Below are positions 58,584 through 64,000 of a DNA stretch of 64,000 nucleotides, piece after piece. Under the pieces are notes generated by a model. It saw nothing but the letters and a program-made list of their open reading frames with translations. It did no database searches and was not told the DNA's origin. A program made the translations under genes and the position numbers. The DNA lies in assembly GCF_010548245.1 (NCBI RefSeq), contig NZ_JAAGLR010000910.1:1-64000 (forward strand), given 5' to 3'. Each line of letters begins with the position of its first letter. The stretch's first letter is position 1. The stretch comes from Streptomyces sp. SID11385. Lineage in GTDB: Bacteria; Actinomycetota; Actinomycetes; Streptomycetales; Streptomycetaceae.

Positions 58584-60707
58584 GTGACCGCCGATACATC
58601 CGTGTCGTCGACAGCTCTGCTGGCAGGAGCAGATCGCGACGACTCCAACTACACCGCGCGGCACCTGCTCGTCCTGGAGGGCCTGGAAGCGGTGCGCAAG
58701 CGGCCCGGCATGTACATCGGGTCGACCGACAGCCGTGGCCTCATGCACTGCCTGTGGGAAATCATCGACAACTCCGTCGACGAAGCCCTCGGCGGCTACT
58801 GCGACCACATCGACGTGACCCTCCACGAGGACGGCTCCGTGGAGGTGCGGGACAACGGGCGCGGCATTCCCGTCGACGTCGAGCCCAAGACCGGCCTCTC
58901 CGGGGTCGAGGTCGTCATGACCAAGCTGCACGCGGGAGGGAAGTTCGGCGGCGGCTCGTACGCCGCCTCGGGCGGCCTGCACGGGGTCGGCGCCTCGGTC
59001 GTCAACGCGCTCTCCGCGCGTCTCGACATCGAGGTGGACCGGGGCGGCTCCGTGCACACCACGAGCTTCCGGCGCGGAGTCCCCGGCCAGTTCAAGGGCG
59101 CGGGTCCGGAGGGTGCCTTCGAGCCCACGACGGGGCTGCGCAAGACCAAGCGCATCCCGAAGACCCGCACGGGCACCCGGGTGCGCTACTGGGCGGACCG
59201 GCAGATCTTTCTCAAGGACGCCAAGCTCTCGCTGGAGACCCTGCATCAGCGGGCCCGCCAGACCGCCTTCCTCGTGCCGGGACTCACCCTCGTGGTCCGC
59301 GACGAATACGGCCTCGGCGAGGGCGGGAGCAAGGGCGAGGAGTCCTTCCGCTACGACGGCGGGATCAGTGAGTTCTGCGAATACCTCGCCCGCGACAAGG
59401 CCGTGTGCGACGTGCTGCGGCTGAGCGGGCAGGGCACCTTCAAGGAGACCGTCCCGGTCCTCGACGAGTACGGGCAGATGACGCCCACGGAGGTCGTCCG
59501 CGACCTCGGCGTGGACGTGGCCCTGCGCTGGGGCACGGGGTACGAGACCTCCGTGCGCTCCTTCGTGAACATCATCGCGACGCCCAAGGGCGGCACCCAC
59601 GTCACCGGCTTCGAGCGTGCCGTCACGCGCACCGTCAACGATGTCCTGCGCAGCGCCAAGCTGCTGCGGGTCGCCGAGGACGATGTCGTGAAGGACGACG
59701 CGCTGGAGGGCCTCACGGCCGTCGTCACGGTGCGTCTGGCCGAGCCGCAGTTCGAGGGGCAGACCAAGGAGGTGCTGGGCACCTCGGCGGCGAACCGGAT
59801 CGTCGCGAACGTCGTGGCCAAGGAGCTGAAGGCGTTCCTGACCTCGACCAAGCGCGACGCGAAGGCGCAGGCCCGCGCGGTGCTCGACAAGGTCGTCGCA
59901 GCGGCCCGTACCCGTATCGCCGCACGTCAGCACAAGGAGGCCCAGCGCAGGAAGACCGCGCTGGAGTCCTCCTCGCTGCCCGCCAAGCTCGCCGACTGCC
60001 GCAGTGACGACGTGGACCGCAGCGAGTTGTTCATCGTGGAGGGGGACTCCGCGCTCGGCACGGCGAAGCTCGCCCGCAACTCCGAGTTCCAGGCGCTGCT
60101 GCCGATCCGGGGCAAGATCCTCAACGTGCAGAAGTCCTCCGTCTCGGACATGCTCAAGAACGCCGAGTGCGGGGCGATCATCCAGGTCATAGGAGCCGGC
60201 TCGGGGCGTACCTTCGATCTCGACGCGGCGCGCTACGGCAAGATCATCCTGCTCGTGGACGCCGACGTGGACGGGGCGCACATCCGCTGCCTCCTGCTCA
60301 CGCTCTTCCAGCGCTACATGCGCCCGATGGTCGAGGCGGGCCGGGTCTTCGCGGCCGTCCCGCCGCTCCACCGGATCGAGCTGAGCCAGCCGAAGAAGGG
60401 CCAGGACAAGTACGTCTACACGTACTCGGACCGCGAGCTGCGCGAGACGCTGCTCGACTTCGAGCGCAAGAACGTCCGGTACAAGGACTCCATCCAGCGC
60501 TACAAGGGTCTCGGCGAGATGGACGCCGACCAGCTCGCGGAGACCACGATGGACCCGAGGCACCGCACGCTGCGGCGCATCAGCATGAACGACCTCGACA
60601 GCGCCGAGCAGGTCTTCGACCTTCTCATGGGCAACGAGGTCGCGCCGCGCAAGGAGTTCATCACCAATTCGGCGGCGACGCTCGACCGCTCGCGCATCGA
60701 CGCGTAG
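58584..60707 (+). CDS. parE: Topoisomerase IV subunit B (ParE)
   Basis: ATPase subunit of a type IIA topoisomerase, 707 residues. GHKL ATPase motifs: EIIDNSVDEA, DNGRGIPV and GGLHGVGASVVNAL; the TOPRIM domain has EGDSALGTAKLARN and DADVDGAHIR. Presence next to hrdB, away from dnaA/gyrB, points to ParE. GTG start; GGAGCGAACCGC precedes it. Confidence 0.9.
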   Translation: MTADTSVSSTALLAGADRDDSNYTARHLLVLEGLEAVRKRPGMYIGSTDSRGLMHCLWEIIDNSVDEALGGYCDHIDVTLHEDGSVEVRDNGRGIPVDVEPKTGLSGVEVVMTKLHAGGKFGGGSYAASGGLHGVGASVVNALSARLDIEVDRGGSVHTTSFRRGVPGQFKGAGPEGAFEPTTGLRKTKRIPKTRTGTRVRYWADRQIFLKDAKLSLETLHQRARQTAFLVPGLTLVVRDEYGLGEGGSKGEESFRYDGGISEFCEYLARDKAVCDVLRLSGQGTFKETVPVLDEYGQMTPTEVVRDLGVDVALRWGTGYETSVRSFVNIIATPKGGTHVTGFERAVTRTVNDVLRSAKLLRVAEDDVVKDDALEGLTAVVTVRLAEPQFEGQTKEVLGTSAANRIVANVVAKELKAFLTSTKRDAKAQARAVLDKVVAAARTRIAARQHKEAQRRKTALESSSLPAKLADCRSDDVDRSELFIVEGDSALGTAKLARNSEFQALLPIRGKILNVQKSSVSDMLKNAECGAIIQVIGAGSGRTFDLDAARYGKIILLVDADVDGAHIRCLLLTLFQRYMRPMVEAGRVFAAVPPLHRIELSQPKKGQDKYVYTYSDRELRETLLDFERKNVRYKDSIQRYKGLGEMDADQLAETTMDPRHRTLRRISMNDLDSAEQVFDLLMGNEVAPRKEFITNSAATLDRSRIDA

Positions 60708-60739
60708 TCGGCCGCCCGCCGAACGCGCTGGCCACCGCC

Positions 60740-60780
60740 CGTCGGCCGCCGTCGGCCGCCCGTCGGCCGCCGTCGGCCGC
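60740..60780. repeat. GTCGGCCGCC tandem repeat
   Basis: The unit GTCGGCCGCC is repeated about four times in two 21-base blocks just after parE. It is non-coding. Confidence 0.8.
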
Positions 60781-60976: not shown

Positions 60977-61513
60977 ATGTCCGGGGCCCTGGAGATCCTG
61001 CTCGTCGCGGCGGCGGTCCTTCTCATCGCGTTCAGGCTGTTCCGGGCGCAGCGCATCAACGGCGGCGGGCGCTGGTGGCTCATGCCCGTCGTCCTCGCCG
61101 TCGTAGCGCTGCGTGAACCCGGGCTCGTCGATCACGCGCACCCCTACGCGGCAGGCACTCTCATGGTGCTCAACGTGCTCACGGGCCTGCTCACGGGTGC
61201 CGCCTGGGCGTGGACCTCGCGGGTCTGGCGGGAAGCGGACGGGAGCCTGTGGGCCGCGGGCTCGAAGGCGGCCGGTGCCGTGTGGTGCGGCGGCATCCTG
61301 GTGCGGGTCGCGCTCTACGGGGTCGGTGCCTCGCTGGGGATAACGCAGCACACGCCCGTCCTTCTCCTGGGGCTGGCCGCCACCTTCCTCGCCCGAGGGC
61401 TCCTGCTCAACCACCGGGCCGCGCTTCTCGGGCCGACGTACGGTGACGGTTCCGGGGCGCCGCAGTCGGCTCGCCGGAACAACCGCGCACCCCGCCCGAA
61501 GGACCGTGTATGA
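60977..61513 (+). CDS. DUF1453-like integral membrane protein
   Basis: 178 residues with four to five hydrophobic segments, beginning MSGALEILLVAAAVLLIAFRLF. It resembles DUF1453/CcdC-like proteins. GGAGG precedes the ATG. Its stop overlaps the kinase start as ATGA, so it is coupled to the two-component pair and may modulate the sensor. Confidence 0.75.
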   Translation: MSGALEILLVAAAVLLIAFRLFRAQRINGGGRWWLMPVVLAVVALREPGLVDHAHPYAAGTLMVLNVLTGLLTGAAWAWTSRVWREADGSLWAAGSKAAGAVWCGGILVRVALYGVGASLGITQHTPVLLLGLAATFLARGLLLNHRAALLGPTYGDGSGAPQSARRNNRAPRPKDRV

Positions 61514-63552
61514 GGAAGGACGTCTGGTCGGCCTGGCCCTCGCGCGAGGCACTCTCGCGGGAGAGCCGCCGCCGGGTGGTGAGCGAGGCCCGAACGGCCG
61601 CGACCCGGGGGATTCGGGTCACGCTGCTGGGCTTCCTCGTATGGATCAGCTACCGGCTGAATCCGGACGCGGGGCCGGCCCGGATGATCGCTGGGCTCGT
61701 CCTGGTCGTAGTCGCCATCGCCGCGCTGCGGCGCTTCTTCCGGGTCACGGCGGAACAACGGCTCCGGGCCGCCGTTCCCTGCATCGCGACACTCCTTCTC
61801 TCGGGGGCGGGGGCCTACGGTCTCGGCTGGCAGGTGGCCGCGTCCGTGGCCTGGTGTCTTGCCGCGGTTGTCGCGCTGGAACGGTTGCCCCTCGGCTGGG
61901 GCGCTCCCGCGGCGTTCCTCGGGCTCGGGGGGTATTTCCTGACGGACCGCGACGACTGGATCGCGACGCTGGTCACCTGCGGGGGGCTGGCCCTGGCGGG
62001 GTTGGTGACGCGGCTCGACGCGGAGGCGAGAGGCGCCGCGCACCGCCTGCTGATCGAGGAACGGGCGAGCCAGGCCGCCCGTGCGGAGTCCGCGGCGCTC
62101 GCGGAGCGGGCCAGGATCGCCAGAGAGATACACGACGTGCTGGCCCACAGCCTCTCGGCACAGCTCGTCCACCTGGAGGCGGCCAGAATCCAGATCGAAC
62201 AGGGCGCCGACCGCCGGCAGGTCCTGGAACGGGTCGTCGCGGCCCGGGGGATGGCTCGTGAGGGGCTGGAGGAGACCAGGCAGGCGCTGTCGGCGCTGCG
62301 CGGCGACATGGCGCCCGTGGCCCAGGCGCTCGCCGAGCTGGCCGCACGGGAGGGCACGGTGCTCCGGGTCGAGGGCGAGGCGCGACCGGTCGCCGCGGAG
62401 GCGGGGCAGACGCTTCGCAGGGTCGCCCAGGAGGCGCTCACCAATGTGCGCAAGCACGCGCCGGGCGCGCGACCACAGCTGCGCCTCGTCTACGGCCCCG
62501 AGACCATCGAGCTGGAGGTCCGCAACGGGCCCGGACGGCAGCCGTGGGGGGAGCGGGTGGCGTGGGGCGAGCGCTCCCCCGAACACGAGGGGTTCGACGG
62601 GGCGGGGTGTGGTGAGCCGACCCGGCGCACCATGGGGGTTGAACCGGCTGAACCGGCTGAACCGGCCGAGCGGGCTGGGCGGGCCACGGGGGCTGAGCGG
62701 GCCGAGCAGACCGCTCGGGCTGAACGGGCGGAGGCAGCTGACCGGGCCGACCTGGCTGAGGCGGCTGAGCGGGCCGTACGGGCAGACACGAGTGAGCCGC
62801 CCGAACCGCTTGAACCAGCCGAACCGGCCACGGCCGAGCAGGCTGTGCGCGCCGAGCGGCCGGACAGGGCTGCGCGGATTGAACGGGCCGAGACAGATGA
62901 GCGGGCGGAGCGGGCTGAGCAGGCCACGGGGGCTGAGCGGACTGAACCAGCCGAGCGGGCTTCGCAGACCACTCGGACTGAACGGGCCAAGGCGGACGAG
63001 CGAGCCGAACCGGCCGAAGCGCCTGAACCGGCCGAGGCGGCTGAGCGAGCCGAACCGGCCGAGGCGACTGAACGGGCCCAGCCGGGCGAGGCGGCTGAGG
63101 CGACTGAACGGGCCGAGCGGGCCGGGCAGGCCGCGCGCCCCGAGCGCCCCGAGCGACCCGAGCGGCCCGCGCGGGCTGAACGGGGCAAGCAGGCTGAGGG
63201 CACTTCGGCGCGTGTGCGGCCTGCGCCGCCTGAGGGCTCTGCGCGGGGCAAGCGCCTCGGAGGCGCTGAGCGGCGCGAGGCGAGGGCGGCGCTTGCGGCG
63301 GAGGCGGTGGCCGGGGCGGGCTCGGCGGAGCCGGAAAGGGCGGTGGGTCGGGGAGGAGCCGGAGGTAGGGCGGCGGGGGGAGACGCCGTGGGCGTGAGGG
63401 ACGTCGGCGGAGCGGATCTGGCGGGGAGTGGCAGCGGCTACGGTGTGAGAGGCATGCGGGAGCGGGCCGAGTTGCTGGGCGGGACACTGTCGGCAGGGCC
63501 TCCGGAGGACGGTGAGGAAGGGTTCGTGGTGCGACTGAGGGTTCCGGCGTGA
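61510..63552 (+). CDS. NarL-type histidine kinase with large insertion
   Basis: 680 residues. Five to six membrane segments (about 20-180) precede the HisKA_3 motif AREIHDVLAHSLS (His208) and the N-box region EALTNVRKHAPG. Between the strand ending EVRNGPG (about 345) and the G-box GSGYGVRGMRERAELLGG (about 640) lies an insertion of nearly 300 residues, largely (Glu-Arg/Pro-Ala)n tripeptides. That spot corresponds to the ATP-lid loop. Ends overlap both neighbours. Kinase function is likely but the insert is highly unusual. Confidence 0.85.
   Translation: MRKDVWSAWPSREALSRESRRRVVSEARTAATRGIRVTLLGFLVWISYRLNPDAGPARMIAGLVLVVVAIAALRRFFRVTAEQRLRAAVPCIATLLLSGAGAYGLGWQVAASVAWCLAAVVALERLPLGWGAPAAFLGLGGYFLTDRDDWIATLVTCGGLALAGLVTRLDAEARGAAHRLLIEERASQAARAESAALAERARIAREIHDVLAHSLSAQLVHLEAARIQIEQGADRRQVLERVVAARGMAREGLEETRQALSALRGDMAPVAQALAELAAREGTVLRVEGEARPVAAEAGQTLRRVAQEALTNVRKHAPGARPQLRLVYGPETIELEVRNGPGRQPWGERVAWGERSPEHEGFDGAGCGEPTRRTMGVEPAEPAEPAERAGRATGAERAEQTARAERAEAADRADLAEAAERAVRADTSEPPEPLEPAEPATAEQAVRAERPDRAARIERAETDERAERAEQATGAERTEPAERASQTTRTERAKADERAEPAEAPEPAEAAERAEPAEATERAQPGEAAEATERAERAGQAARPERPERPERPARAERGKQAEGTSARVRPAPPEGSARGKRLGGAERREARAALAAEAVAGAGSAEPERAVGRGGAGGRAAGGDAVGVRDVGGADLAGSGSGYGVRGMRERAELLGGTLSAGPPEDGEEGFVVRLRVPA
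62641..63180 (+). repeat. 9-bp coding minisatellite in histidine kinase
   Basis: Units like GAACCGGCT, GAGCGGGCC recur every 9 bases, about 60 copies with substitutions, encoding E-P-A/E-R-A triplets (residues about 378-560). The first three units are nearly identical, suggesting recent expansion. Confidence 0.85.
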
Positions 63553-64000
63553 GCGCGCGGGTGGTGGTGGCCGACGACCAGTCGGTGGTCCGCGAGGGGA
63601 TCGTGATGCTGCTCGGTCTGCTGCCGGGGATCGAGGTGGTGGGCTCGGCGCGGGACGGTGACGAGGCGGTGCGGCTCGTCGGAGAGCTGGCCCCGGACGT
63701 CGTCCTGATGGACCTGCGGATGCCACGCTGCGACGGGGTGGAGGCGACCCGCAGAATCAGGGCGGAGCACCCGGGGACGCAGGTCGTCGTGCTGACCACG
63801 TACGCGGACGACCAGGACCTCTTCCCGGCCCTGCGCGCGGGGGCCAGGGGCTATCTCACGAAGGACGCCGGGGGCGAGGAGATCGTGCGCGCCATTGAGG
63901 ACGTGCTGTCCGGTGAGGCGGGGCTCGCTCCGGGGATTCAGCGCCGCCTCCTCGACAGGATCGCGGGCGAGGACGCGGTCGACCGGGAGGCACCGCCCGG
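63549..64000 (+). CDS. NarL/FixJ response regulator (truncated by window)
   Basis: The GTG overlaps the kinase TGA as GTGA. The visible 150 residues form a receiver domain: acidic DD (VVVADDQSVVREG), phospho-acceptor Asp in VLMDLRMPRCDG and the conserved Lys in GYLTKDAGG. The LuxR-type DNA-binding domain should follow beyond 64000. Partner of the upstream kinase. Confidence 0.9.
   Translation, partial: MSARVVVADDQSVVREGIVMLLGLLPGIEVVGSARDGDEAVRLVGELAPDVVLMDLRMPRCDGVEATRRIRAEHPGTQVVVLTTYADDQDLFPALRAGARGYLTKDAGGEEIVRAIEDVLSGEAGLAPGIQRRLLDRIAGEDAVDREAPP

Follow-up and report, generated by a model that had tools for sequence, protein, structure and literature searches.

The window analysed here is a stretch of 64 000 nucleotides from Streptomyces sp. 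SID11385. Three overlapping genes lie on its plus strand downstream of a ParE/GyrB-like gene recognized by eye (58584-60707). The first of the three (60977-61513) codes for a small hydrophobic protein of 178 aa, with only a weak Pfam match below the cut-off, which is probably a membrane protein. It overlaps by four bases (ATGA) the start of the second gene (61510-63552), an ATG-initiated open reading frame of 680 aa with orthologues in other genomes, which codes for a histidine kinase with an enlarged ATP lid. The kinase stop in turn overlaps by four bases (GTGA) the start of a response regulator gene (63549-64000, running past the window end), and ribosomes at the kinase stop would be well placed for the regulator gene. 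The receiver domain of the regulator is clearly identified (Response_reg, 98.7 bits in Pfam), and a LuxR-type HTH motif was spotted by eye and pattern. Orthologues of the kinase with an ordinary, short lid have parE upstream and the regulator downstream wherever both were found. In the regulator (L096), receiver and HTH are joined by a long linker of low complexity. Among the 68 of 88 loci in which this span could be read, the median is 106 residues, and the longest spans are those of the window (149) and genome G010 (141); one short-lid species reaches 139, so the span is not evidence of co-variation with the lid.

The kinase begins with a hydrophobic, helical sensor region (residues 1-180 approximately, 61510-62049; helices predicted by AlphaFold2), presumably located in the membrane. 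There follows a HisKA_3 dimerization and phospho-acceptor domain (residues 199-264, 62104-62301), scoring 51.6 bits in Pfam against a curated cut-off of 24 and containing the H-box histidine His208. The catalytic domain, HATPase_c, is matched in two stretches at 27.6 bits (cut-off 26.4), compared with 43.6 bits in an uninterrupted orthologue (L031). The N box, ALTNVRKH (residues 309-316, 62434-62457), was located from the aligned rows; the G1 box, VRNGPG (residues 337-342, 62518-62535), and the G2 box region, GSGSGYGVRGMRER (residues 639-652, 63424-63465), were located from sequence and alignment. The H-box histidine and the N-box asparagine are invariant in all 69 aligned rows, and the two G2 glycines that were checked, both present in the window kinase, are found in 68 and 69 of them. 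The canonical G1 aspartate is absent and replaced by asparagine, a residue found at this position in six of the 69 rows, the window included. The statement of a first-pass annotation that the catalytic motifs are intact is thus correct for the H, N and G2 boxes and incorrect for G1. Scores against the NCBIfam equivalogs MadS and MctS remain below their cut-offs (57.8 against 500 and 40.1 against 700, respectively). By its domains, motifs, predicted fold and adjoining regulator, the gene is a DesK-class (HisKA_3) histidine kinase.

During catalysis, the ATP lid is believed to shut onto the bound nucleotide. In the window kinase it carries an in-frame insertion of 296 residues (343-638, 62536-63423), delimited by orthologue comparison and flanked on both sides by catalytic motifs. 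The first-pass annotation had recognized an in-frame lid insertion of about 300 residues, which is confirmed; its position, given there as between the N box and the G box, is indeed in the lid and more exactly between G1 and G2. The possibility raised there that the insert is a known domain finds no counterpart in Pfam, where no family matches. The annotation had further described the insert as a tripeptide repeat of about 60 E-R/P-A copies. A degenerate array of the 9-nt unit GAR CSG GCY (62641-63198), identified by repeat and composition analysis, does cover 186 of the 296 inserted residues, but the remainder is other low-complexity sequence. The figure of 60 copies is also too high: the array spans 62 tripeptide lengths resembling Glu-Arg/Pro-Ala, and exact ERA or EPA occupies only 23 of them, against 3.2 +/- 1.7 (maximum 11) in 2000 shuffles.

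At the nucleotide level, the identity of the array at lag 9 is 0.60, compared with 0.38 +/- 0.02 in codon shuffles. It is flat, at approximately 0.60, across lags 9, 18 and 27, which indicates that the units are old or fast-diverged rather than freshly copied. Codons for the same residue one unit apart are identical in 40 of 80 cases, with 37 expected from the codon usage of the array. This usage differs from that of the surroundings: GCT represents 18 of the 54 alanine codons in the array against 5 of 153 nearby, and GAA 17 of the 43 glutamate codons against 11 of 87 nearby.

Dispersed copies of the array were considered and rejected. Besides itself, the array DNA has six short matches in its own genome (G000) and seven in genome G010, all with E values of 1e-7 to 5e-4. 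A 27-base pattern from the array is found without mismatches in two places, both inside the window array. Allowing up to three mismatches gives 30 places on the forward and 73 on the reverse strand, and 6 and 76 in the read-backwards control, so these looser matches say little. Most of them belong to a single perfect array on another contig, C62, of the same genome (G000:C62:3-677, L110), where 75 perfect copies of GAGCCCGCC, encoding Glu-Pro-Ala on the minus strand, stand at the contig end; this may be a real repeat or a product of assembly.

Lid length was measured as the distance from the N box to the G2 box and compared using one genome per species, so that the differences are between species. 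The window kinase has a lid of 328 residues. Of the 90 loci measured, 86 have lids of 38-48 residues, in a sample that includes 38 loci picked for long open frames and so leans towards finding long lids. The other three long lids are in G592 (168 residues), G589 (169) and G010 (148). Relative to the window kinase, identity over the query is 89% for G592 and 85% for G589, both of which came from another draw of same-genus genomes. Close relatives at E <= 1e-108 are rare in the overlapping draws, being found in two of 395 genomes (own and G010), one of 392 (G010), three of 372 (own, G592 and G589) and one of 328 (own). Kinase matches are present in 167 of the 392 genomes of one draw; among the matches listed whose lid was not read, the open frames are approximately 386-401 aa, which leaves no room for a large insert. 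A named-contig search with the kinase gave only two relatives, both Streptomyces sp. and both with short lids; the other genomes with the gene are assigned to the same genus. The short-lid Streptomyces orthologues, without the insert in 86 of 90 loci, have the same domain order and 49-60% identity over the alignment. From gene order, we presume that they correspond to SCO5824/SCO5825 of S. coelicolor. That pair is listed as a kinase and NarL-type regulator in a table of PMC9739842. In solved catalytic domains (VanSA, VanSC and 12 others), approximately the same segment has 39-61 residues, and the lid is the most variable part of the domain (PMC10017428).

The phylogenetic tree of 69 kinases was established with the lid left out and rooted at the midpoint. 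The four long-lid kinases constitute one group with support 100/100, and the branch leading to it is long, at 0.77 changes per site. Within this clade the window kinase branches first and the other three are grouped together (99/90); its nearest relative by distance is G592. All four share the insertion point, the G1 Asp-to-Asn change and the insert edges (VRNGPGRQxWGER ... DLAxSGSGYGVRG), with little shared sequence between them. The inserts between G1 and G2 measure 296 aa in the window, 136 in G592, 137 in G589 and 116 in G010, and their repeat units differ; the first-pass annotation had proposed variation among strains, and variation among relatives is real, as judged from four species. 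The E-R/P-A array is present in the window only and, since the window branches first, either the window lineage acquired it or the other three lost it. The window insert is composed mainly of Ala, Glu and Arg, whereas the other three are Gly-rich. The repeat unit is 9 nt in the window and 27 nt in G589, units of 27 and 66 nt are among those found in G592, and no repeat was found in the G010 insert. A three-residue period as strong as that observed is reached by none of 2000 shuffles for the window, one for G592 and four for G589; it is undetectable in G010 (350 of 2000). A weak 9-nt period may thus predate the ERA array.

The clade is somewhat diverged in its kinase core. The median identity of the kinase core is 0.724 between the clade and other species and 0.783 among the others. 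The corresponding values are 0.874 and 0.898 for the ParE end, which is slightly diverged, and 0.783 and 0.779 for the regulator, which is not. The lid insertion is restricted to one clade, and the kinase core is conserved around it.

Selection was estimated as dN/dS (NG86) in the six pairs among the four clade members. From DHp to G1, ahead of the insert, all six pairs have a ratio of 0.04-0.11. In the last 42 codons, which follow the insert, five of the six pairs have 0-0.09, and the sixth has 0.39 at a dS of 0.03, too low to judge. The N-terminal sensor region has 0.26-0.36. In the alignable insert the ratio is 0.38-0.59 at a dS of 0.80-1.38, values that are only indicative because codon alignments of the insert are unreliable. 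Purifying selection on the kinase is thus strong on both sides of the insert, which itself is loosely constrained. A pseudogene was rejected because of the constraint on both sides.

The array also bears marks of its reading frame. In the kinase frame, synonymous changes account for 40 of 80 single-base codon differences between its units at a distance of 3 codons, for 34 of 79 at 6 codons and for 35 of 79 at 9 codons. This is a share of 43-50%, against 28-31% expected, and the other two frames give 18-23%. As the enrichment occurs in the kinase frame only, the array is read in that frame and is mildly constrained at the amino-acid level, which argues against complete neutrality. Translation in another frame was considered because the GC content by codon position (0.90, 0.66 and 0.71) taken alone favours a shift; it was rejected on the same synonymous enrichment.

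AlphaFold2 models were compared for the window kinase (67-row alignment) and the G592 kinase. Outside the insert, the ten-residue mean pLDDT is 73-97 in both; in the window model, residues 1-340 have values of 82-97 and residues 641-680 values of 73-91. Within the window insert two longer helices are predicted, one at 394-426 and one at 442-496, with means of about 55-93 and proline-rich breaks, as well as two short weak ones (527-540 and 585-601); segments 345-391, 430-440, 498-527, 539-584 and 599-639 are below 50. The G592 model has the same core and no such helix, its insert residues 343-479 being all below 50. The helices therefore belong to the ERA array and are not conserved in the clade. 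The split halves of the window catalytic domain align with known structures: residues 254-680 with the VraS catalytic domain 4gt8 (Z 15.1, 121 aligned, 2.5 A) and residues 267-680 with DesK 3ehg (Z 14.4, 114 aligned, 2.6 A). In the model, the halves are accordingly predicted to close into one catalytic domain. DesK is the top match in the sequence and Foldseek searches, and the VIA-align list is headed by the catalytic domains of VraS, DosS and DesK.

The explanation that we consider on balance probable is that of a working DesK/NarL-class kinase, the lid of which became, once, a permissive low-complexity loop turning over by repeat slippage. The lid of the clade ancestor would have accepted a first insertion a single time, in the form of a low-complexity, hydrophilic and mostly disordered loop. 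The exposure and flexibility of the lid, the G1-side and G2-side ends of which lie near each other, would explain why such an insert is tolerated. In-frame slippage of tandem repeats would then have rebuilt the loop repeatedly and fast, the E-R/P-A array being the filling of the window kinase. The catalytic domain would assemble around ATP, and the kinase would phosphorylate His208 and the adjoining response regulator. It should still bind ATP, since the model closes the two halves with the N and G2 boxes placed. According to an argument in PMC10017428, the G1 asparagine could keep the adenine hydrogen bond and would lose the salt bridge. Weak selection would maintain the charge of the loop and its open frame rather than a particular sequence or length. 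We infer that slippage is the cause, that kinase activity is retained and that the effect of the insert on activity is only modest. Some observations do not fit easily. All four species have a large insert, so that free loss is not demonstrated, and the amino-acid constraint on the array units speaks against full neutrality. The G010 insert has neither repeat nor three-residue period, and slippage of a local seed alone gives no explanation for the odd GCT and GAA usage of the array. The G1 asparagine and the long branch of the clade would fit an altered catalytic mode.

A different and rather doubtful possibility is that the lid has turned into a disordered module that evolves fast, with selection acting on its being there and on its charge rather than on its sequence. 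A long lid would slow or gate ATP/ADP exchange or the switch from kinase to phosphatase, with repeat number as a selected set-point for ATP affinity or kinase/phosphatase balance and the G1 asparagine as part of the same re-tuning. The insert is present in all four clade members at lengths from 116 to 296 aa, its composition is constrained and it accompanies the G1 Asp-to-Asn change; in VanS, G1 asparagine goes with weak ATP binding, a correlation for which causation is not shown there (PMC10017428). Such tuning is less easily reconciled with the lack of any conserved structure inside the inserts, which share little beyond their edges, and with the enlarged lid of a second kinase in these genomes, as a general tendency predicts. 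More drastically, the insertion and the G1 asparagine might cripple ATP use altogether, leaving a phosphatase, a scaffold or a heterodimer partner. The missing G1 aspartate and the long branch would fit such a loss, and there is a precedent in a ChrS variant that is catalytically dead and yet has a role in signalling (PMC9491836). We regard this as improbable, given the invariant H-box histidine and N-box asparagine, the retained G2 glycines and the dN/dS of 0.04-0.11 from DHp to G1. Moreover, G1 asparagine also occurs in two of the 65 rows outside the long-lid group, the short-lid orthologues L017 and L068, and the ThkA structure reported in PMC10017428 has an Asn-adenine hydrogen bond.

The helices predicted at 394-426 and 442-496 could suggest that the ERA segments form stiff, charged single helices that contact the membrane, the partner protomer or some other protein, and the array does contain 19 E-to-R pairs at i+4, against 8.2 +/- 2.3 in shuffles. 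These pairs follow from the three-residue period, prolines break the array, and the Gly-rich G592 insert is wholly disordered, so that there is no conserved helix; we consider such an arm quite improbable. As for an assembly or sequencing artefact, a concern raised in the first-pass annotation, the draft genome does consist of 1202 contigs, and a perfect 9-mer array ends one of them (C62). The units of the window array are too diverged (about 60% identity) for a mis-assembled repeat, inserts stand at the same point in three other genomes, of which two are assembled into just 2 contigs, and frame and constraint continue on either side. An artefact is therefore very unlikely; the exact insert length is that given by the draft assembly.

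The second kinase bears on the preferred reading, that of a permissive loop. It is another HisKA_3 kinase, G000:C230 (L142), with a lid of 69 residues in the window's own genome, 70 in G592, 84 in G589 and 72 in G010, compared with 36-52 in all 18 other relatives. Of 27 HisKA_3 matches in the own genome, 16 have lids readable by motif: 14 are 32-43 aa long, the others being G000:C230 (69) and the window kinase (326 by the motif pattern). The enlargement of lids in at least two kinases of the same four genomes favours lineage-wide permissiveness or a mutational tendency over a kinase-specific device, that is, a tendency of flexible loops to grow in this lineage rather than a dial peculiar to the window kinase. 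The G000:C230 kinase also has a longer charged C-terminal tail.

The DesK-class kinases DesK, VraS and DosS resemble the window kinase in having HisKA_3 and HATPase_c domains and an adjoining response regulator; they differ from it by its lid of 328 aa (38-48 in orthologues) and its G1 asparagine. VanS kinases belong to a different histidine-domain class. The G1 aspartate is usual and not obligatory, VanS and ThkA both having asparagine; VanS lids are 57-58 aa long, unlike that of the window (PMC10017428). Single alpha-helix domains resemble the window array in their E/R-rich sequence and i+4 charge pairs, and the array is predicted to be helical in part; it differs from them in having many prolines and is not conserved in relatives. 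Among the literature matches listed, mostly from outside subscription papers, no title or abstract start mentions a repeat insertion in the ATP lid of a histidine kinase. The window kinase is a known type of enzyme in a variant that is real, unusually large and specific to one clade. Four related and evidently constrained kinases, whose lids measure 148-328 residues and are filled differently, constitute a natural experiment on lid length in histidine kinase catalysis, and a test of how tandem repeats grow in an active-site loop without destroying the enzyme. The tuning of kinase activity by array length that the first-pass annotation proposed is possible but goes further than the evidence.

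The spacer upstream of the three-gene unit contains two further repeats. A perfect 21-nt direct repeat of 2.2 copies, CCGCCCGTCGGCCGCCGTCGG, follows the ParE-like gene (60735-60780) and was not seen in the G592 and G589 spacers. Just upstream of the unit there is an inverted repeat (60816-60839/60863-60886) with 24-nt arms, 88% complementary, and the core TCTGTTTCTCCACCC/GGGTGGAGAAACAGA; further copies of TCCACCCT are found nearby. The inverted repeat is present in G592 and partly in G589, with similar words in one other spacer (L020) of 37, and is a possible candidate operator.
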